Positions 4,284-53,917 of a stretch of DNA of 64,000 bases are shown here, one piece after another. The notes beneath the pieces were generated by a model that saw only the letters and a list, made by a program, of their open reading frames with translations, had not been told where the DNA came from and did no database searches. Numbering within the stretch: the stretch's first letter is position 1; every line of letters begins with the position of its first letter. Position numbers and translations under genes: made by a program. The stretch is taken from assembly GCA_015499995.1 (NCBI GenBank), contig JADNRV010000097.1:124001-188000 (forward strand), written 5' to 3'. The stretch comes from Flammula alnicola. Its lineage: Eukaryota; Basidiomycota; Agaricomycetes; Agaricales; Strophariaceae.

Positions 4284-6428
4284 TCAAACGCTCAACTCAA
4301 CCTTCCCAGTTTTCTTAACCGCCTCCTTAAGCTCCTCGTCCTCCAAGGCCGGCTGGACCCACTTGGCCAAGAACGAATCGACCTGTTCAGGTGCACGGCC
4401 GATGAAGCTCGCAGGATCCAGCAGCGACTCGAGATCATTCTTAATAGAATCAAAGTACGCGTCGCCCTTGATACGTTCGATCAGATCGTTCTCGAGTCCG
4501 AGCATCTTGACTTGGTGGCCGGCCTCGTGGGACAGGACCTGAGCAGAGTTAAAATTGTTCGTGATTAAGTGGTAGTACTGAATGTCATAGGAGGCGAATA
4601 CGCACCCTGATTTTCTCATGTGCCTCCTGACGGTCACCGCCCTTCTTAACGATGGCCATGATGACGTTCTCAGTAGCCATGAAGGGGAGCTCCTGCGCGA
4701 TACGGCGAGCGATGACCTTAGGGTAAACTACCAGTCCCTCCGAGATGTTTTGCAGCGTCGAAAGGACGATGTCAGCAGTCAGGAAGGCCTCTGGCAAGGT
4801 GATTCGGCGATTGGCGCTGACAGTAGTATGATTAGAATTTACCTCACTTTTGAAGAATAGATAGATAACGCACCTGTCATCCAAAGTACGCTCAAACCAC
4901 TGGACGCTGGTAGTCATGAGGGCGTTTTGGTGGAGAACCATCAAATGCCTGGAGAGACTGCAAACACGCTCAGAGCGCATGGGGTTACGCTTATACGCCA
5001 TGGCAGAGGATCCAATCTGGGTCGACTCGAAGGGTTCTTCTATTTCCTAATCACGATTTCCCTATTTTATTTTCCGAACCGATGCGTCTTCATTTGATGA
5101 AAACTTACCTTTAAATTCGCCAGGAGACGAATATCGGTGGCAATTTTATGAGCAGTCGCTCCGAGGGAAGCGAGAGGCGCCAACACGTCCGCGTCGATCT
5201 TACGCGAGTATGTTTGCGAGGTAACGGGGTAGGCGTACTCGAACCCAGAGAGCTTCGTAACGAGGTCATCAAGTTCCTCGACCTAAATCAATTGAAAAGC
5301 GTATCAACGCTGTATAGCTGAAGAGCAGGAAATAAGACAAATAGACGACAACCCACCTTCGCGTGGTCCCCATCGAATAGAGCCAAGAAGCTAGCCTGGG
5401 TTCCAGTAGTTCCTTTCACGCCTCGGAAGCCGATATCGTCTCTCACGCGCTTGAGGTTCCTCAGATCCCAAAGGAGTTCCTACAGGAAGAAGAGCGTCAT
5501 GTCAGCTTCGACCAAATGTCGTCTTTGGGGTAATTAACAAACCTGGATCCACAAGGTAGCCCTCTTGCCCACAGTTGTCAGCTGTGCAGGCTGGAAATGC
5601 GTGAAGCCCAATGTGGGGAGGTCGCGGTACTGCGCCGCGAAAGCAGAGAGGCGCGAGATGAGCACGGCGAGCGAGCGGATGAGGTATCCGAGACCTTCGC
5701 GCAAGAAGATGAGGTCGGCGTTACTATTCCGATAAAATCAGTCCTCTCATTGGTCTCCTCTCTCTCTCAACCACATGGGGAATTAGAAAATAAAACGCAC
5801 TCAGTAACATAGCAAGACGTCGCGCCCAAATGGATGATCCCAGCCGCGGCAGGGGCGACCTTTCCAAAGGTGTGAACATGCGCCATAACATCGTGCCTGC
5901 GCTTCTTCTCTTCCACAGCGGCAATATCGAATTGTTCTGGAGTGAGGTGCTGTGATTGACTTCGTTCAGCACCCGCGACCACTCATCGGAGAGACAGAGA
6001 GAAAAATGGGAGGGAGACCATGCAAGTAACGCACCAAATTAGCCTTCATCTGCTCGATCGCCTCATCCGAGATGGGCAGCCCGAGCTGCTTCTCCGCAAC
6101 GGCGAGGTTCAACCACAGTTTGCGCCAGGTGAAGAACCGGTTCTGTATGTCACGAGGTATCAATGTCCGTCAGCTCCCGTGTTCCTACATCCGAATCATC
6201 CCTCGCAGAGTCCAGACAACAATGCGATGAAGGCGATGCAATTGTGGATGCAAATGGGGTGCACGTACAGCAGGAGAGAAGAGATGCGCCATCTCCTTGC
6301 TCGCATATCGGCTGTGGAGAAATGGAAAGCCAACGTCGGATTCAGATGCGTGCAGATAGGTTTAAGAACCATGAATACGAGACGACAAACCTTGAAAGCG
6401 GGGTCTGGTACGTCTCAAAAGCTTCCAT
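4284..6428 (-). CDS. ADE13: adenylosuccinate lyase
   Basis: Adenylosuccinate lyase (fumarase/aspartase superfamily) cleaves SAICAR and adenylosuccinate, releasing fumarate, in cytosolic purine synthesis. The ATG at 6428 opens [12 protein letters not shown]. Later exons give [53 protein letters not shown] and [17 protein letters not shown]. The superfamily signature loop follows as [19 protein letters not shown], holding the catalytic serine region. The protein ends [14 protein letters not shown] count about ten exons with short introns, and the length is close to the roughly 480 residues usual for fungal enzymes. No frame break was seen. It stands alone, transcribed away from the retroelement at 7201. 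Gene symbol is by family identity. Confidence 0.95.
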
Positions 6429-16003: not shown

Positions 16004-17501
16004 TCAGTCACTCTCGTCGTCAATGTGTCGCGTTTGGGTTGAGGGACGGCTTTGCGATGCTCTCATAGCAGAGGGTGCGGGTTCGAGGTCTTCTTCGCCA
16101 TTGTCGCTGTCGTCGACGTCGGATGGTTTTATGATGAGGCGCTGCTTTCCAGCCGAGTTGACATTGCGGTTCGATCGTGGTGGTTGCACTCGTCGTTTCT
16201 TCCATGGATGCTCCTCGGTGTCATTCTCGATCTCCCTCTCGCATTTCTTTGAAGATTTCTTGACAGCAGCGTCGGTCATCTTGGTGGTGGTTGCTGCCCT
16301 ACTCAGACTCTCGTCAACGTCATTCGCCTCCTCGGTTGTTGAGTCCCTGGTATGCATCTTCGACTTTGGAGCAGAAATGGTGGCGGTAGTCTTCTTGGTG
16401 GTAGTCTTGCTGTTTGTAGCATCTTCGAGATCGCTCGTGTACTCGGTATCGGAGTCTGTCTTTGACTTGGTGCTCGCGCCATCTTCAAGTTCGATCTCGA
16501 TATCGGATTCTGTGGCGTGTTTTTTCGACTTCCCCGACTTGGGAGCAGAAGAGGTTGAAGCAGTCTTCTTGGCGGTTTGTCTTCTGCTCAGAGCATCTTC
16601 AGGTTCGCTCGCGCTGTCGATATCGGAGTCCCTGGCGTGTTTCTTCGACTTCCCCGACTTGGGAGCAGAAGAGGTTGAAGCAGTCTTCTTGGTGGTTGCT
16701 TTTTTGCTCGGAGCATCTTCAGGTTCACTCGTCTCGTCGATATCGGAGTTCCTCACATGTTTCTTCAGCTTCCCCGACTTGGGGGCGAAACTGGAAGAGG
16801 CTGTCTTCTCGGTGGTTGATTCGCGGTGTCCCTCCTCACGAGCCTCACGACGGTGGTCCTTTCTTGTACCTGCAATGTAACCTTTTACCATGTCTGCGAT
16901 AGCCCAGTTATGGGGAAAGCGATCCGTTGTAAGGTATGGAAACGACTTCCGCACCTGTAGATTGACGTTCTGAAGGTAATAACAATTTGACAGATAAAGA
17001 GAGACGTACCATGAGAAAAACTTGACCGAGCTTTTCGTGATCTTGATGTCTATAATGCGCGCCAAGGTTTAAACCAGCCTTGATGCAGGCTTTACGAACG
17101 GAATCCTAGAGGGAGGGGTTGTAAAGTTCTCGTATGATCAAGATAAAGAGTCACGCACCCGCATCCTATCATACACAGCAGGCCCATTCTCCACCTTGCT
17201 CATCTGCATAGCATCATAAAGGATGAATCCTCTCTTACGACTCCCTGCCTCTCCTTTAGGCCGAATGATTGCCTTGATGGTAGTCTTTGTCGTGGTCCGC
17301 TTTTCTGTAATACAAAGTAAGTAACGTCCAAATCAATGAATAGGACTGACCTTTGTATTTCCGAAGGCGACGTTCAAGTTCTTCATTTCTCTCCCGCAAC
17401 TCTTCAAGCGTTGGCTGACTGTCTGTGGTACAAGCGTCGTCAGTAGGTGGTGATGCAGGTCGGCGATCTTGCTGGGCGTTGTTCTGTTTCTTATTGGTCA
17501 T
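16004..17501 (-). CDS. CACTA-carried accessory protein with conserved N-terminus and Lys/Ser repeats
   Basis: Four exons (17351-17501, 17159-17304, 17010-17105, 16004-16954) join in frame to about 447 residues. The N-terminus has a coiled segment (LEELRERNEELERRLRKYK), then a folded-looking region containing KVENGPAVYDRM, KACIKAGLNLGAHYRHQDHE and RKSFPYLTTDRFPHNWAIAD. The C-terminal half is low complexity, with three 40-residue repeats (TASTSSAPKSGKSKKH) and acidic DSDI/SEPED patches. I recall this N-terminal region as common in agaricomycete genomes next to Tnp2 genes, so it is probably a transposon accessory (a TNPA-like DNA-binding role is possible but unproven). Confidence 0.75.
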
Positions 17502-39839: not shown

Positions 39840-40720
39840 TCAGTCGTGATCACGGTCGTTGCCGTCATCTCCACCATGGCGGCGCCTGTCGTGGTCACGG
39901 TCGTTACCGTCGTCTCCACCGTGGCGGCGCCTATCGTGGTCGCGGTCTGTGCCATCGTCGCCACCATGGCGGCGCCTGTCGTGGTCGCGGTCTGTGCCAT
40001 CGTCACCACCATGGCGGCGTCTGTCGTGATCGCGGTCGGTGCCATCGTCTCCACCATGGCGGCGTCTATCGTGATCACGGTCGGTGCCGTCATCACCACC
40101 ATGACGGCGAGCCTCGAGCTGTCCGCGCCTGTCGTGGTCAGGGTCGGTGCCGTCGTCACCACCATGGCGGCGCCTGTCGTGGTCGCGGTCGGTGCCGTCA
40201 TCTCCACCATGGCGGCGTCTGTCGTGATCGCGGTCGGTGCCATCGTCTCCACCGTGGCGGCGCCTATCATGGTCGCGGTCGGTGCCATCGTCTCCACCAT
40301 GGCGGCGCCTATCGTGGTCGCGATCGGTGCCATCGTCTCCACCGTGGCGGCGAGCCTCAAGCTCTCCGCGCCTGTCGTGGTCACGGTCGTTGCCATCATC
40401 TCCACCATGGCGGCGCCTGTCGTGGTCGCGATCGTTGCCGTCATCTCCACCATGGCGGCGTCTGTCGTGGTCGCGGTCGGTGCCATCGTCTCCACCGTGG
40501 CGGCGTCTATCGTGGTCACGGTCGGTGCCGTCATCACCACCGTGACGGCGAGCCTCGAGCTGTCCGCGCCTGTCGTGGTCGGGGTCGGTGCCATCGTCTC
40601 CACCATGGCGGCGTCTGTCGTGGTCGGGGTCGGTGCCATCGTCTCCACCGTGGCGGCGCCTATCGTGGTCGCGGTCGGTCCCGTCATCGCCACCGTGGCG
40701 GCGTGCTTCGATTCCGAACG
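39840..40720. repeat. 45-bp tandem repeat array, 18 units
   Basis: The 45-bp unit encodes RRHGGDDGTDRDHDR on the minus strand. Because 45 is a multiple of three, other frames on both strands also stay open across the array; they lack a signal peptide and are judged shadows. Confidence 0.9.
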
Positions 40721-50477: not shown

Positions 50478-53418
50478 ATGTATCGCTCGTGTTCTAGGGA
50501 AAATGGGAGAAACCGTCATCCCGCAACTCAAATATATCACCTGTCTGAAGGCTCTACGCCATCGTCGAATGGCGGCTTCTTTCGCGACGCCTCTGGGTTC
50601 AGTATCGACCGATCTATGCTTACTGAAGTTCGGGGAAATATGATCATCGTTCGTTCTCCCGAGCAGCAATCTCTCGTATGTAAGATCCAGTCAATCACAT
50701 CACAAACGCTGACTGCAATTCAGTGGAATTCCTATCGATTGACCGACTTCGATCAGCGAACACTGCGATGTCTGCGTTCCATTGAGCCGGGCATTTACAC
50801 CATGGAAATGGAGCCGATGACATCCACTTCACGCATTAAAATATATCGCATTCATGAGTACGGGGATAAAGAGGATATTTTCCATGATCATCTCGCAATC
50901 GTCAAATCATCGTGCGTTTTCTTGTCTTGTCTTAACATTTCCTGGATACTCACACATAGCGCAAAGACAAGCTCGTCGGCCAGATATATCACAGTTCTTT
51001 GGAACTTCTGTAGAGAACGCTGATGGTAGCCGATTCATTGTCCTTTCTGGAGGTACGATATTGAGCAGCGTGAACATACTAAAATTTGACTTATAGCTGA
51101 CATTAAATTCCTGCAGGTAATTCGCCCTTGATGGATGTTTTCACCGGAAGTTCCATAGACATAAGAATGATAACAGCGCAGCATGTACGTTCTGATTAAT
51201 CAAGCTCCTGTCGTTTTACGATGCTAACTGACCATTGCTTAGTACTTGCAGATAATCGTGAGTGCATATATCGATATCAATATATATAAACGGAATAACT
51301 AAGAAATCGTAGGACATATTCAGCATAGGATCATTCAGTCCGTTGAACTGGAGCTGGGTGAAATTTTGGCACCTCCCCATATTTACTCCAGACTGTCGAC
51401 TTCTTGTGGACTTGATTCTTCTTGAATCTAACGGCATGCTAGCAAGTTCAGAAAGGGTCAGAGAAATGGTAAATGACATGCACATAAAACCATGAAATTT
51501 GCTAAATCTGTCATTATAGGCTTTCAAGCGACCCTGTATTGTACGTTATCGAGAGGCAATATACCGTCTGATATGTGAGCTATGTGTCCTTGACAAAATG
51601 AGGGGAGAACTACTGACGACTTGGATGACATAGCTCCTGGTGATATGGAGTGTATCGTGCACCGCAATCAAGATCCAGCCAAAGTTAAGGATGCCATTGT
51701 AAGGGCTGACAGGGCTTCGAGCGGATTGGTCAGTCACTAAAAATCAAGCTTGAAGCACACGATCTAATATTTCCCCAACAATCATGTTGCTGGAGTACAG
51801 GTGGTGAGTGCTCTATCTTCTTGTCATCATCTGTTGTTGACAGTGTTGATCTCTCTCTCCATTGCAGTTTGTGAGTGCTCTATCTTCTCGACATCATCCA
51901 TTGCTGACAACATTGATCTTTCTCCATTGCAGTTTGTGAGTGCACTCTCCTTGCCATTGTCCATTGCTGAAAGTGTCAATCTCTCTCTCCATTGCAGCTT
52001 GTGAGTGCTACTATCATCTGTCACTGACAGTGTTGATCTCTCTCTGGATTGCAGGATGCAAGTGCTCTCTCTCCTCACTATTCTTCTTTGTTGATAGTAG
52101 TTATCTCTCTGCACTGCAGAATGTGGGTGCTCTCTCTCCTCACCATTGTCCATCACTGATATTGTTGATCTCTCTTTGCATTGCAGGATGTGAGTGCTCT
52201 ATCTTCTTGCCATCATCCATCACTGACAATTTCAATCTCTCTCTTCATTGCAGTTTGTGAGTGCTCTCTCTTCTCACTATCCTCCATTTCTAACAGTGTC
52301 AACCTCTCTCTCCATTGCAGTGTGTGAGTGCTCTGTCTTACCACCATCATCTGTCATTGACAATGACAATCTCTCTCTGCATTGCAGCATGTAAGTGCTC
52401 TCCCATCTTCTTGCCACACTTTGTCACTGAGGGTGTCAATCTCTCTCTGCATTGCAGATTGTGAGTACTCTCTCTCCTCATCATCCTCTGTTGCTGATAG
52501 TGTTGATCTCTCTCTGCATTGCAGGATGTAAGTGTTCTCTCTCTCTCTCACCAATGTTCATTGTTGACAGTGTCAATCTCTCTCTGCATTGCAGGATGTG
52601 AGTGCTCTCTTGCTCCTTGCCATCCTCTGTCACTGACAGTGTCAATCTCTCTTTATTGCAGTTTGTGAATGTTTTCTCTCTCCTTGCCATCCTCTGTTGT
52701 TGACAATGTCAATCTCTTTCTCCATTGCAGCATGTGAGTGCTCTGTCTTACCACCATCACTTATCACTGACAGTGTCAATCTCTCTCTGCATTACAGAAT
52801 GTGAGTGCTCTCTCTCCACCTCATCATCTGTCACTGACAGTGTTGATTTCTCTCTTTATTGCAGCTTGTAAGTACTCTCTCTCCTCACTATCATCTGTTG
52901 CTGACAGTGTCAATCTCTCTTTCTATTGCAGCTTGTGAGTGCTACCACCATCTGTTGCTGACAGTGCTGATCTTTCTCTTCATTGCAGATTGTGAGTGCT
53001 TCTCTTCTTGCCATCTTCTGTCACTGGCAGTGTTGATCTCTTTCTGCATTACAGAATGTGAGTGCTCTTTCTTCTTGCCATCATTTGTTGCTAACAGTGA
53101 CAATATCTCTCTCTATTGCAGATAGTGAGTGCTCTATCTTACCATCGCCTGTTGCTAACAGTGATGATCTCTCTCTGCATTGCAGTTTGTAAGTGCTTTC
53201 TCTTTTTTCCATCATCTGTTACTGACAGTGTCAATCTCTCTCTGCATTGCAGCATGTGAGTGCTTTCCCCTCTCACCCTGCCAGTGTGTTTTCTTGCTGA
53301 ATGCTACTCTTAAGCCTCATAACAACTGTATGTCATGTAACACCATATATTATTTAACTTCATTTTCTTTCTGTCTGCAAAGCACCTGTTCATTCCACTC
53401 CTTCAACTTCTGGAATAG
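50478..53418 (+). CDS. hypothetical protein gene running into a tandem array of intron-like units
   Basis: Eight exons join in frame: 50478-50675, 50724-50911, 50967-51052, 51117-51184, 51243-51257, 51313-51468, 51520-51574 and 51634-51728 (287 codons). They encode SSNGGFFRDASGFSIDRSML, IYRIHEYGDKEDIFHDHLA, RRPDISQFFGTSVENADGSR, FTGSSIDIRMITAQH and SPGDMECIVHRNQDPAKVKD. This resembles the N-terminal half of agaricomycete proteins with an FF-x-x-A/S-x-x-F motif and a degenerate kinase-like 'hP-x-I-x-Q-x-F-G' segment, though I cannot name a family. The last junction is phase 0. From 51801, single codons bounded by splice signals follow (see array). A final acceptor at 53382 gives HLFIPLLQLLE and TAG at 53416-53418. 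The model from 51801 onward is hypothetical; the transcript could instead end or splice elsewhere. Confidence 0.5.
51801..53255 (+). repeat. tandem array of 22 intron-like units separated by 3-base intervals
   Basis: Each 57-70 bp unit (most often 67) starts with a donor (GTGAGT in most; also GTAAGT, GTGGGT, GTGAAT, and one GC donor, GCAAGT at 52058). It continues with a variable middle, in most units a branch-like CTGAC or CTAAC, a CTCTCTC pyrimidine tract, and TTGCAG or TTACAG. Between each CAG and the next donor are exactly three bases. They are TTT (5 times), GAT (4), CTT, AAT and CAT (3 each), ATT (2), TGT and ATA (1 each), after a first GTG at 51801. The spacing of three never varies although unit length does. 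None of the triplets is a stop codon. Either a minisatellite that happens to contain AG-N3-GT, or true tandem introns with one-codon micro-exons. Confidence 0.85.
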
Positions 53419-53768
53419 AGGAAATCAGTCAAGGTAAGTCTGTCCTCCATTCATTCTTTTTTTTAAAATGAATGTGGTCTGGCTATCAAGACATAATGGA
53501 TGTAGATTCTCCCTTTGATACTGGGATTACCGGTAATTCATTAGACATTGGTGGAGGCTTTTTGATAGAAGATGTAATGGATGTGGGTCCATAGATATAG
53601 AATTCTGCTACACCTGGTTCTGTTACAAATTGATATTAACTTTGATAGGGTCAACCAAGGGAGACTTAGGAAGCATGATACTGGTGTGAACTAAGGTTTT
53701 ATTTGGGTTTTATTTCAGCAAATTTGTCTGGAAAATGCAACCTCCCGTCTGACTATGAATCCGAAGTA

Positions 53769-53917
53769 CTGTACTATTTCGACCAAGTGTTCACGATTTT
53801 GGGAATTTTGCCTCCCCAAGGAGGCCGATAATTTTTCTTTTGATTTAAGGCGAATAAAAAAAGGTCTTTTTTCCCCAGTGTGATGCGTGATGTGAACACT
53901 TGGTCGAAATGGTACAG
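53769..53917. mobile_element. Tc1/mariner-type MITE, 149 bp, TA target duplication
   Basis: The ends are CTGTACTATTTCGACCAAGT and, inverted, CTGTACCATTTCGACCAAGT. They extend to a 26-base inverted repeat with one mismatch. TA flanks both sides (53767-53768 and 53918-53919). The interior has no coding capacity. It lies about 500 bases after the intron-like array. Confidence 0.8.

Follow-up and report, generated by a model that had tools for sequence, protein, structure and literature searches.

Structure of the host gene and its array

The DNA analysed here, hereafter the window, is a stretch of 64,000 nt from the basidiomycete Flammula alnicola. On its forward strand, at 50478..53594, we modelled a gene of eight upstream exons, 23 one-codon exons and three downstream exons, with a predicted product of 365 amino acids. 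The model is open from ATG to TAG and its length is divisible by three; when every triplet is taken as a codon, this structure also gives an uninterrupted frame at two paralogous loci, L007 (367 amino acids) and L008 (364 amino acids). The upstream part (50478..51728) opens with the ATG at 50478, ends in phase 0 and comprises exons at 50478-50675, 50724-50911, 50967-51052, 51117-51184, 51243-51257, 51313-51468, 51520-51574 and 51634-51728. A first version of the exon 7/8 junction (51520-51540 and 51603-51728) was replaced by the present one in accordance with the annotated F. alnicola protein P0148 (BDZ97DRAFT_1847236). The upstream model at L007, on contig C21, equals P0148 in 288 of 291 residues, and beyond this match P0148 continues into the donor of the entry intron (..VSH). 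The F. alnicola gene model P0122 likewise runs into a donor, and none of the six models examined for this species (P0121-P0125 and P0148) includes an array.

The upstream part is followed by an entry intron at 51729..51800 (GTCAGT..GTACAG), of which the sequence is unlike the repeat. On the other side of the array, an exit intron is predicted from phase at 53256..53314 (GTGAGT..CTTAAG), with no annotated model supporting it. Since a phase-0 array must join the frame of the next exon, a small downstream exon was modelled at 53315..53327 (CCTCATAACAACT), which is open in L007 and L008 as well. Another downstream exon (53383..53433; ..STPSTSGIEEISQ) is common to P0149 of Phlegmacium glaucopus and the metagenome protein P0152, and the last exon (53491..53594) encodes DIMDVDS..DVGP before the stop TAG. 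The exon borders at 51728 and 53383, proposed in an earlier note made from the letters of this DNA, were thus both retained, with the one extra exon placed between them. The other introns modelled in the host gene are 48-72 nt long. The upstream exons have relatives in Phlegmacium; P0149 and P0152 match them and also have in common the C-terminal segment STSGIEE..DIM.VDS. Because these two proteins share both parts flanking the array, the array is placed inside a single gene. Pfam gave no match for the window host, P0149 or P0152, and an AlphaFold run on P0149 together with five relatives gave an unusable result (mean pLDDT 30), leaving the window host without a fold assignment.

The array itself (51801..53255) consists of 23 triplets and 22 predicted introns of 54-67 nt, in frame (VFFLDNDFCHIDDFHNLLINIFH). 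Triplets 1-12 are GTG, TTT, TTT, CTT, GAT, AAT, GAT, TTT, TGT, CAT, ATT and GAT, and triplets 13-23 are GAT, TTT, CAT, AAT, CTT, CTT, ATT, AAT, ATA, TTT and CAT; 21 of the 23 end in T, the exceptions being the entry GTG and the one ATA. TRF detected in the window a repeat at 51804-53264 with a period of 67, 22.1 copies and 73% matches. All 22 units, of 57-70 bp each, end with a CAG acceptor, and their donors are GTGAGT (15 units), GTAAGT (four), GCAAGT, GTGGGT and GTGAAT (one each), giving GT in 21 cases and GC in one. When gaps of 0-12 bases were permitted, the distance from AG to donor was exactly three bases for all 23 donors, that is, the entry GTACAG-GTG-GTGAGT plus the 22 unit donors; matches to the motif GCAGAT at 52454, 52985 and 53118, which straddle the acceptor, were left out of the count. 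Both the donor scan and TRF thereby agree with the description by the earlier note of 22 intron-like units of 57-70 bp with exact 3-base gaps, and the five donor forms that it regarded as plausible were all recovered. Its statement that most units carry CTGAC or CTAAC has to be reduced to just over half (12 of 22) for the exact motif, whereas the looser YTRAY is found in 20 of 22.

The reading frame of the triplets was compared with the two shifted frames at the window, L007 and L008. A shift by one base left no stops in one alternative frame, while the other contained seven, three and seven stops, respectively.

Related arrays in the F. alnicola genome

The genome searched consists of 74.4 Mb in 861 contigs, with the window on contig C859. 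Among the best-scoring candidates, an array search of this genome gave only four paralogous loci, located on C859, C277 (L006), C21 (L007) and C183 (L008), which have in common a homologous gene of approximately 4.3 kb; the identity to the window is 98% for C277 and 75-76% for C21 and C183. The pattern of donor, CTGAC, acceptor, pyrimidine-ending triplet and donor was then matched 110 times, as against 2 matches in a backwards control, and a pattern requiring GTA donors in two successive units 128 times as against 4. With a loose pattern, 237 real and 217 control matches were obtained, so that only its clusters are informative. The genome-wide search proposed by the earlier note thus gave, among the matches listed, at least 18 loci with one-codon arrays, in four intron families.

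Family 1 comprises the four paralogous loci above, and family 2 those on C93 (35 triplets) and C490 (15 triplets). Family 3 includes four loci on C53, four on C157 (two of these places being near copies), and one each on C479, C239 and C323; the C239 and C323 loci have two or three junctions only, and the former is cut by the contig end. Family 4 is represented by C790 (L043). Several loci are paired, as in a dikaryon. With six bases trimmed from the start and three from the end, the four consensus introns resembled one another no more than shuffled sequences did (p 0.057 to 0.87). The hosts also differ in Pfam content: the window family is without a match, one host is a GTPase (MMR_HSR1), one is GTPase-like with MMR_HSR1 below the cut-off, and further hosts encode ULD_2, a ubiquitin-like domain, and match PigL_N below threshold. 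In the C93 array, all 35 codons specify Asp, Tyr, Arg or His.

Among junctions with a donor 0-9 bases from the acceptor, the gap was three bases at 155 of 163 in seven arrays of families 1, 2 and 4 (one being the allele L006), and at 161 of 163 in ten family-3 loci (some being alleles or near copies). The eight exceptions in families 1, 2 and 4 were all in L043, where seven junctions of two bases and one of one base lie at 4296-5177; they adjoin apparently shortened single-base runs, as would result from sequencing error or from real decay. In L008, the last unit (5618-5671) is devoid of an acceptor, with CAATCA directly before GTGAGT, and two introns would be fused there.

Variation of triplets and introns

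Column diversity was determined for seven arrays representing the four intron families; for L043, 13 of 18 intervals (those of 80 bp or less) were used. In the window array, the first triplet base showed the highest diversity of all columns (0.78), followed within the triplet by the second (0.57) and third (0.09) bases. Within the intron, the values were 0.25 for ordinary columns, 0.22 for the branch, 0.14 for donor positions +3..+6 and 0.02 for GT-AG; the branch columns were barely better kept than the remaining intron. Over the seven arrays, triplet diversity was 0.64-0.78 at base 1, 0.33-0.76 at base 2 and 0-0.52 at base 3, as compared with 0-0.02 for GT/AG, 0-0.15 for donor +3..+6, 0-0.22 for the branch and 0.10-0.25 for other intron columns, and base 1 was among the most variable columns in all seven. 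The first two triplet bases, which the earlier note called hypervariable in the window array, rank among the most variable columns in the seven arrays.

None of the 62 adjacent intron-column pairs in the window was as variable as the pair of triplet bases. This pair exceeded every adjacent intron-column pair in six of the seven arrays and, in L039, all but 2 of 64; with one array taken per family, the combined p was 0.00013. Between close units (three or fewer intron differences), the per-base frequency of differences at triplet bases 1-2 was 5-22 times that in introns in six of the seven arrays; L043 provided one close pair, L040 three and the window none. The conservation of GT-AG relative to random four-column sets was significant in three of the seven (window, 0.008; L040, 0.002; L043, 0.048) and not significant in the four others (0.09-0.23), in which the introns are more uniform.

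A count of substitutions at splice-signal and other bases, also suggested by the earlier note, gave a divided outcome. Between the window and L006, 0 of 246 splice-signal bases and 25 of 1138 others were changed (p = 0.014). For L040 and L041, which are family-3 alleles, the same tendency fell short of significance, with 4 of 232 splice-signal bases changed against 38 of 1006 others (p = 0.16). Unit-by-unit comparison of the family-3 paralogues L045 and L050 gave no difference between triplets (7/54) and introns (142/1074); for the last eight units of L040 and L045, 6 of 24 triplet bases and 62 of 469 intron bases were changed (p 0.12). The L040-L050 comparison was left out, one unit being out of register.

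No stop was found among 109 triplets of seven family-3 loci. Starts with TA or TG were observed for 8 of 71 pyrimidine-ending triplets and for 0 of 38 purine-ending ones (p 0.049), a weak sign of stop avoidance. The rule that the second triplet base is never C was tried and discarded as a general one, being true in family 1 only. At six family-3 loci (L040, L044, L045, L047, L049 and L050), donor position +4 was A after 12 of 38 purine-ending triplets and after 2 of 70 others (p 5e-5); most of these cases are GAA or GCA before GTAAGT, and either shared descent or splice-site compensation could account for them.

The arrays differ in their rate of turnover. The flanks of L007 and L008 agree in 99.2% of positions in the 2.2 kb before the array and in 97.4% immediately after it, and the two arrays, with 24 and 21 triplets, have no identical unit in common (23 vs 20 compared) and equal-triplet runs of at most two. 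The C93 and C490 loci, with flanks 93-95% identical, differ in triplet number and codons. In contrast, the window and L006 arrays are colinear with one triplet different, and L040 and L041 (the C53/C157 pair) have similar flanks and identical triplets. Some arrays thus appear to turn over quickly, while others are stable.

Relatives in other species

With the C93 gene model as query, 791 proteins were found, of which 120 were listed; the C-terminal parts of the closest 57 among those listed were inspected (for some, the last 120 residues only), and 11 were aligned. P0012 of Mycena galericulata (B0H11DRAFT_1899446) carries at the array position a 22-residue string with 64% Asp, Tyr, His and Arg, and P0014 of M. 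albidolilacea (DFH08DRAFT_819618) an 18-residue string with 72%, as compared with 16% across these proteins overall. Both strings, with limits chosen by us, are free of Glu, Lys, Gln, Met and Trp, the residues that NNY cannot encode (p 0.006 and 0.015). They provide an indirect sign that triplets may be included in proteins. The AlphaFold model of P0014 has a mean pLDDT of 77, with values below 50 at residues 301-318, approximately its array string (302-319); this low-confidence segment would fit an exposed flexible stretch.

Other relatives gave a mixed picture. P0034 has two similar runs that contain Trp, the models of several relatives end near the array position after running into a donor, and Mycena P0002, P0004 and P0009 as well as Phlegmacium P0149 cross the array position without such a peptide. 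In Mycena P0006, P0015 and P0022, repeats such as CESA.L.SACSLCSL resemble translated tandem intron units, a hint that Mycena may have arrays of this type on yet another family of introns.

Interpretation of the array

We consider that the array is a series of 23 one-codon exons, which are spliced in and have diversified, set apart by 22 short spliceosomal introns, and we assign to this reading a probability of about 0.7 on the strength of sequence comparison. The proposal by the earlier note of an intron plus one codon under splicing constraint remains the best-supported reading, because the array lies in phase between exons conserved in other genera, because the splice dinucleotides rank among the least variable columns in seven arrays of the four intron families and triplet bases 1-2 among the most variable, and because two Mycena relatives of one host carry a similar kind of peptide at the array position.

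An unlikely alternative is that a minisatellite, seeded from an intron end, lies within one large intron (51729 to 53314 or 53382), its internal sites unspliced and its triplets untranslated. The array behaves as a minisatellite in being called a tandem repeat by TRF and in differing in unit number between the homologous loci L007 and L008; the annotated P0149, P0002, P0004 and P0009 all cross its position; and amphioxus mirages, according to the available part of their description, carry splice signals and yet leave normal splicing intact (PMC3087553). Such an intron would, however, be approximately 1.6 kb long, as against 48-72 nt for the other modelled introns, and neither the combination of variable triplet bases 1-2 with conserved GT-AG in four dissimilar families nor the codon-like strings of P0012 and P0014 would be explained.

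Even less probable is that the array is a relic, formerly spliced codon by codon in a host gene that is now decaying together with it. The upstream exons of the window and L007 differ by 75 nonsynonymous and 23 synonymous substitutions, and the ratio of 0.95 is near neutrality. In L006, a deletion lies over the last intron, and the modelled C-terminal frame consequently fails there; the unit without acceptor in L008 and the junctions of one or two bases in L043 could be added as signs of decay. Against decay, the 98 substitutions and three indels (3, 6 and 6 bases) that separate the first eight exons of the window and L007 include no stop or frameshift, the C-terminal exons are constrained (ratio 0.38), and the splice signals of the window and L006 are identical. 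The ratios and the 98-substitution comparison were obtained with the first version of exons 7 and 8, and the corrected model is likewise open.

Splicing as proposed, but with codons diversified by local, perhaps targeted, mutation at the two bases after AG, is a slightly weaker candidate again. L007 includes two pairs of units with identical introns and triplets differing in all or two of the three bases, and changes are confined to bases 1-2, base 3 being mostly T or C even where a change would be silent. Against this, the first and second triplet bases of the window and L006 were changed in 1 of 44 cases, like other bases (25/1138), and none of 57 triplet bases was changed between L040 and L041. 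Repeated insertion of introner-like mobile introns at one place, which would agree with every unit being a complete intron, is very improbable, as neighbouring triplets are not mutual copies, unlike target duplications, and the array search of the genome gave only the four paralogous hosts among its best-scoring candidates.

Under the one-codon reading, each intron of 54-67 nt would be removed singly, like the other introns of the host, and every triplet would serve as a phase-0 codon, so that full splicing would yield a 23-residue peptide between the upstream and C-terminal exons. Since all array exons are one codon long, skipping would leave the frame intact. Unequal exchange among units would keep the introns alike and change the number of units, while triplet bases 1-2 would diverge since different residues are favoured. 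What the sequence shows is the geometry, the placement inside a gene, the open frame, the column pattern and the recurrence on four intron families that resemble one another no more than by chance; splicing and translation of the array, inclusion of most triplets, and diversification of the codons by selection and not by mutation are inferred. As its most likely use, which we put forward tentatively, the peptide might serve as a variable surface through which a recognition-type protein makes contacts; the link to nonself recognition is drawn by analogy from the truffle case considered below and the kind of host gene. More speculative, and in our judgement doubtful, is the view of the mushroom arrays as an engine of peptide diversity, repeatedly invented on unrelated introns and convergent with the truffle NLR genes, in which stochastic skipping would let one gene encode as many as 2^23 versions of a recognition surface, all in frame. 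Uniform introns would then let the units exchange freely, while the codons, most of them NNY and as such never stops, would be diversified.

Comparison with known systems

The earlier note knew of no described array of this kind, but NACHT-ankyrin (nank) genes of the truffle Tuber melanosporum, as summarized in passages of four papers that all cite Iotti et al. 2012, have tens of 3-bp exons that are alternatively spliced (PMC4986451, PMC3689799, PMC10197012, PMC9815663). In these excerpts, the truffle genes resemble the present ones in the tens of 3-bp exons per gene (here 23, and up to 35, as read from DNA) and in belonging to a fungal, rapidly diversifying gene family; they differ in being ascomycete genes with NACHT-ankyrin hosts, whereas the basidiomycete hosts here are without NACHT or ankyrin Pfam matches. 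The repeats of the fungal NLR HET-E/NWD proteins, in the account available in part, are also homogenized by exchange, with few hypervariable positions and differences in repeat number (PMC4986451). The repeat is protein-coding there, whereas in the present arrays exon sequence would be confined to the variable codon, the uniform remainder being intron.

Micro-exon genes of schistosomes likewise have many tiny exons, mostly multiples of three, but the portion of the account at hand describes exons mostly of 15 bp, introns of 100 to almost 5000 bp and secreted proteins, and mentions no tandem intron repeat (PMC10526429). Long introns around tiny exons are not a feature of the window gene, in which the modelled introns are 48-72 nt long. 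Amphioxus mirages are minisatellites that span exon-intron borders and contain AG and GT signals; as far as their partial description goes, the splice signals are not kept in all units, regular splicing is undisturbed and no one-codon spacing is described (PMC3087553). The units here consist of a whole intron plus three exon bases, and the entry and exit introns are unlike the units by eye. Fungal introner-like elements also form families of similar introns, but in the part of the source consulted they are invasive, multiplying introns, while the present units are tandem within paralogous hosts (PMC4457414). That tiny exons can be spliced is indicated by excerpts on the mirages and the schistosome genes, and by others on a one-nucleotide exon in Arabidopsis and a microexon in Trichoderma. 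By their descriptions, as available in part, none of the mirage, schistosome, Arabidopsis and Trichoderma cases is a tandem one-codon array.

A literature search, with a minority of subscription journals and parts of papers covered, returned no description of such arrays in basidiomycetes. Relative to the truffle genes as described in these passages, new here are the occurrence in a basidiomycete, the other host proteins, the apparent repeated origin and the codon hypervariability. If the one-codon reading is true, splicing would assemble a peptide codon by codon in a basidiomycete, the layout would have multiple origins, on introns unrelated to each other and in distinct protein families, and selection could act on a single codon between introns. 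Through this rare layout, a fungus could produce recognition peptides that keep changing, and the arrays would offer a system for testing how small a workable exon can be and whether fungi generate receptor diversity by splicing. It also suggests that variable peptides in fungal gene families are missed by automatic annotation.

Other features of the window

Downstream of the host gene, a 149-bp insertion at 53769-53917 has inverted ends (CTGTACTATTTCGACC and GGTCGAAATGGTACAG) and TA on both sides, and is missing from the otherwise 98% identical copy on C277; it looks like a small TA-inserting mobile element. Two further tandem repeats were observed, a coding-like 45-bp minisatellite at 39843-40711 with long open frames on both strands, and a 120-bp repeat at 16497-16818 inside overlapping open frames on both strands. 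An open frame at 20596-22197 matches Transposase_21 (tnp2; E 1.1e-21), and an exon at 57813-58385 matches Glycosyl hydrolase family 3 (E 2.1e-14).
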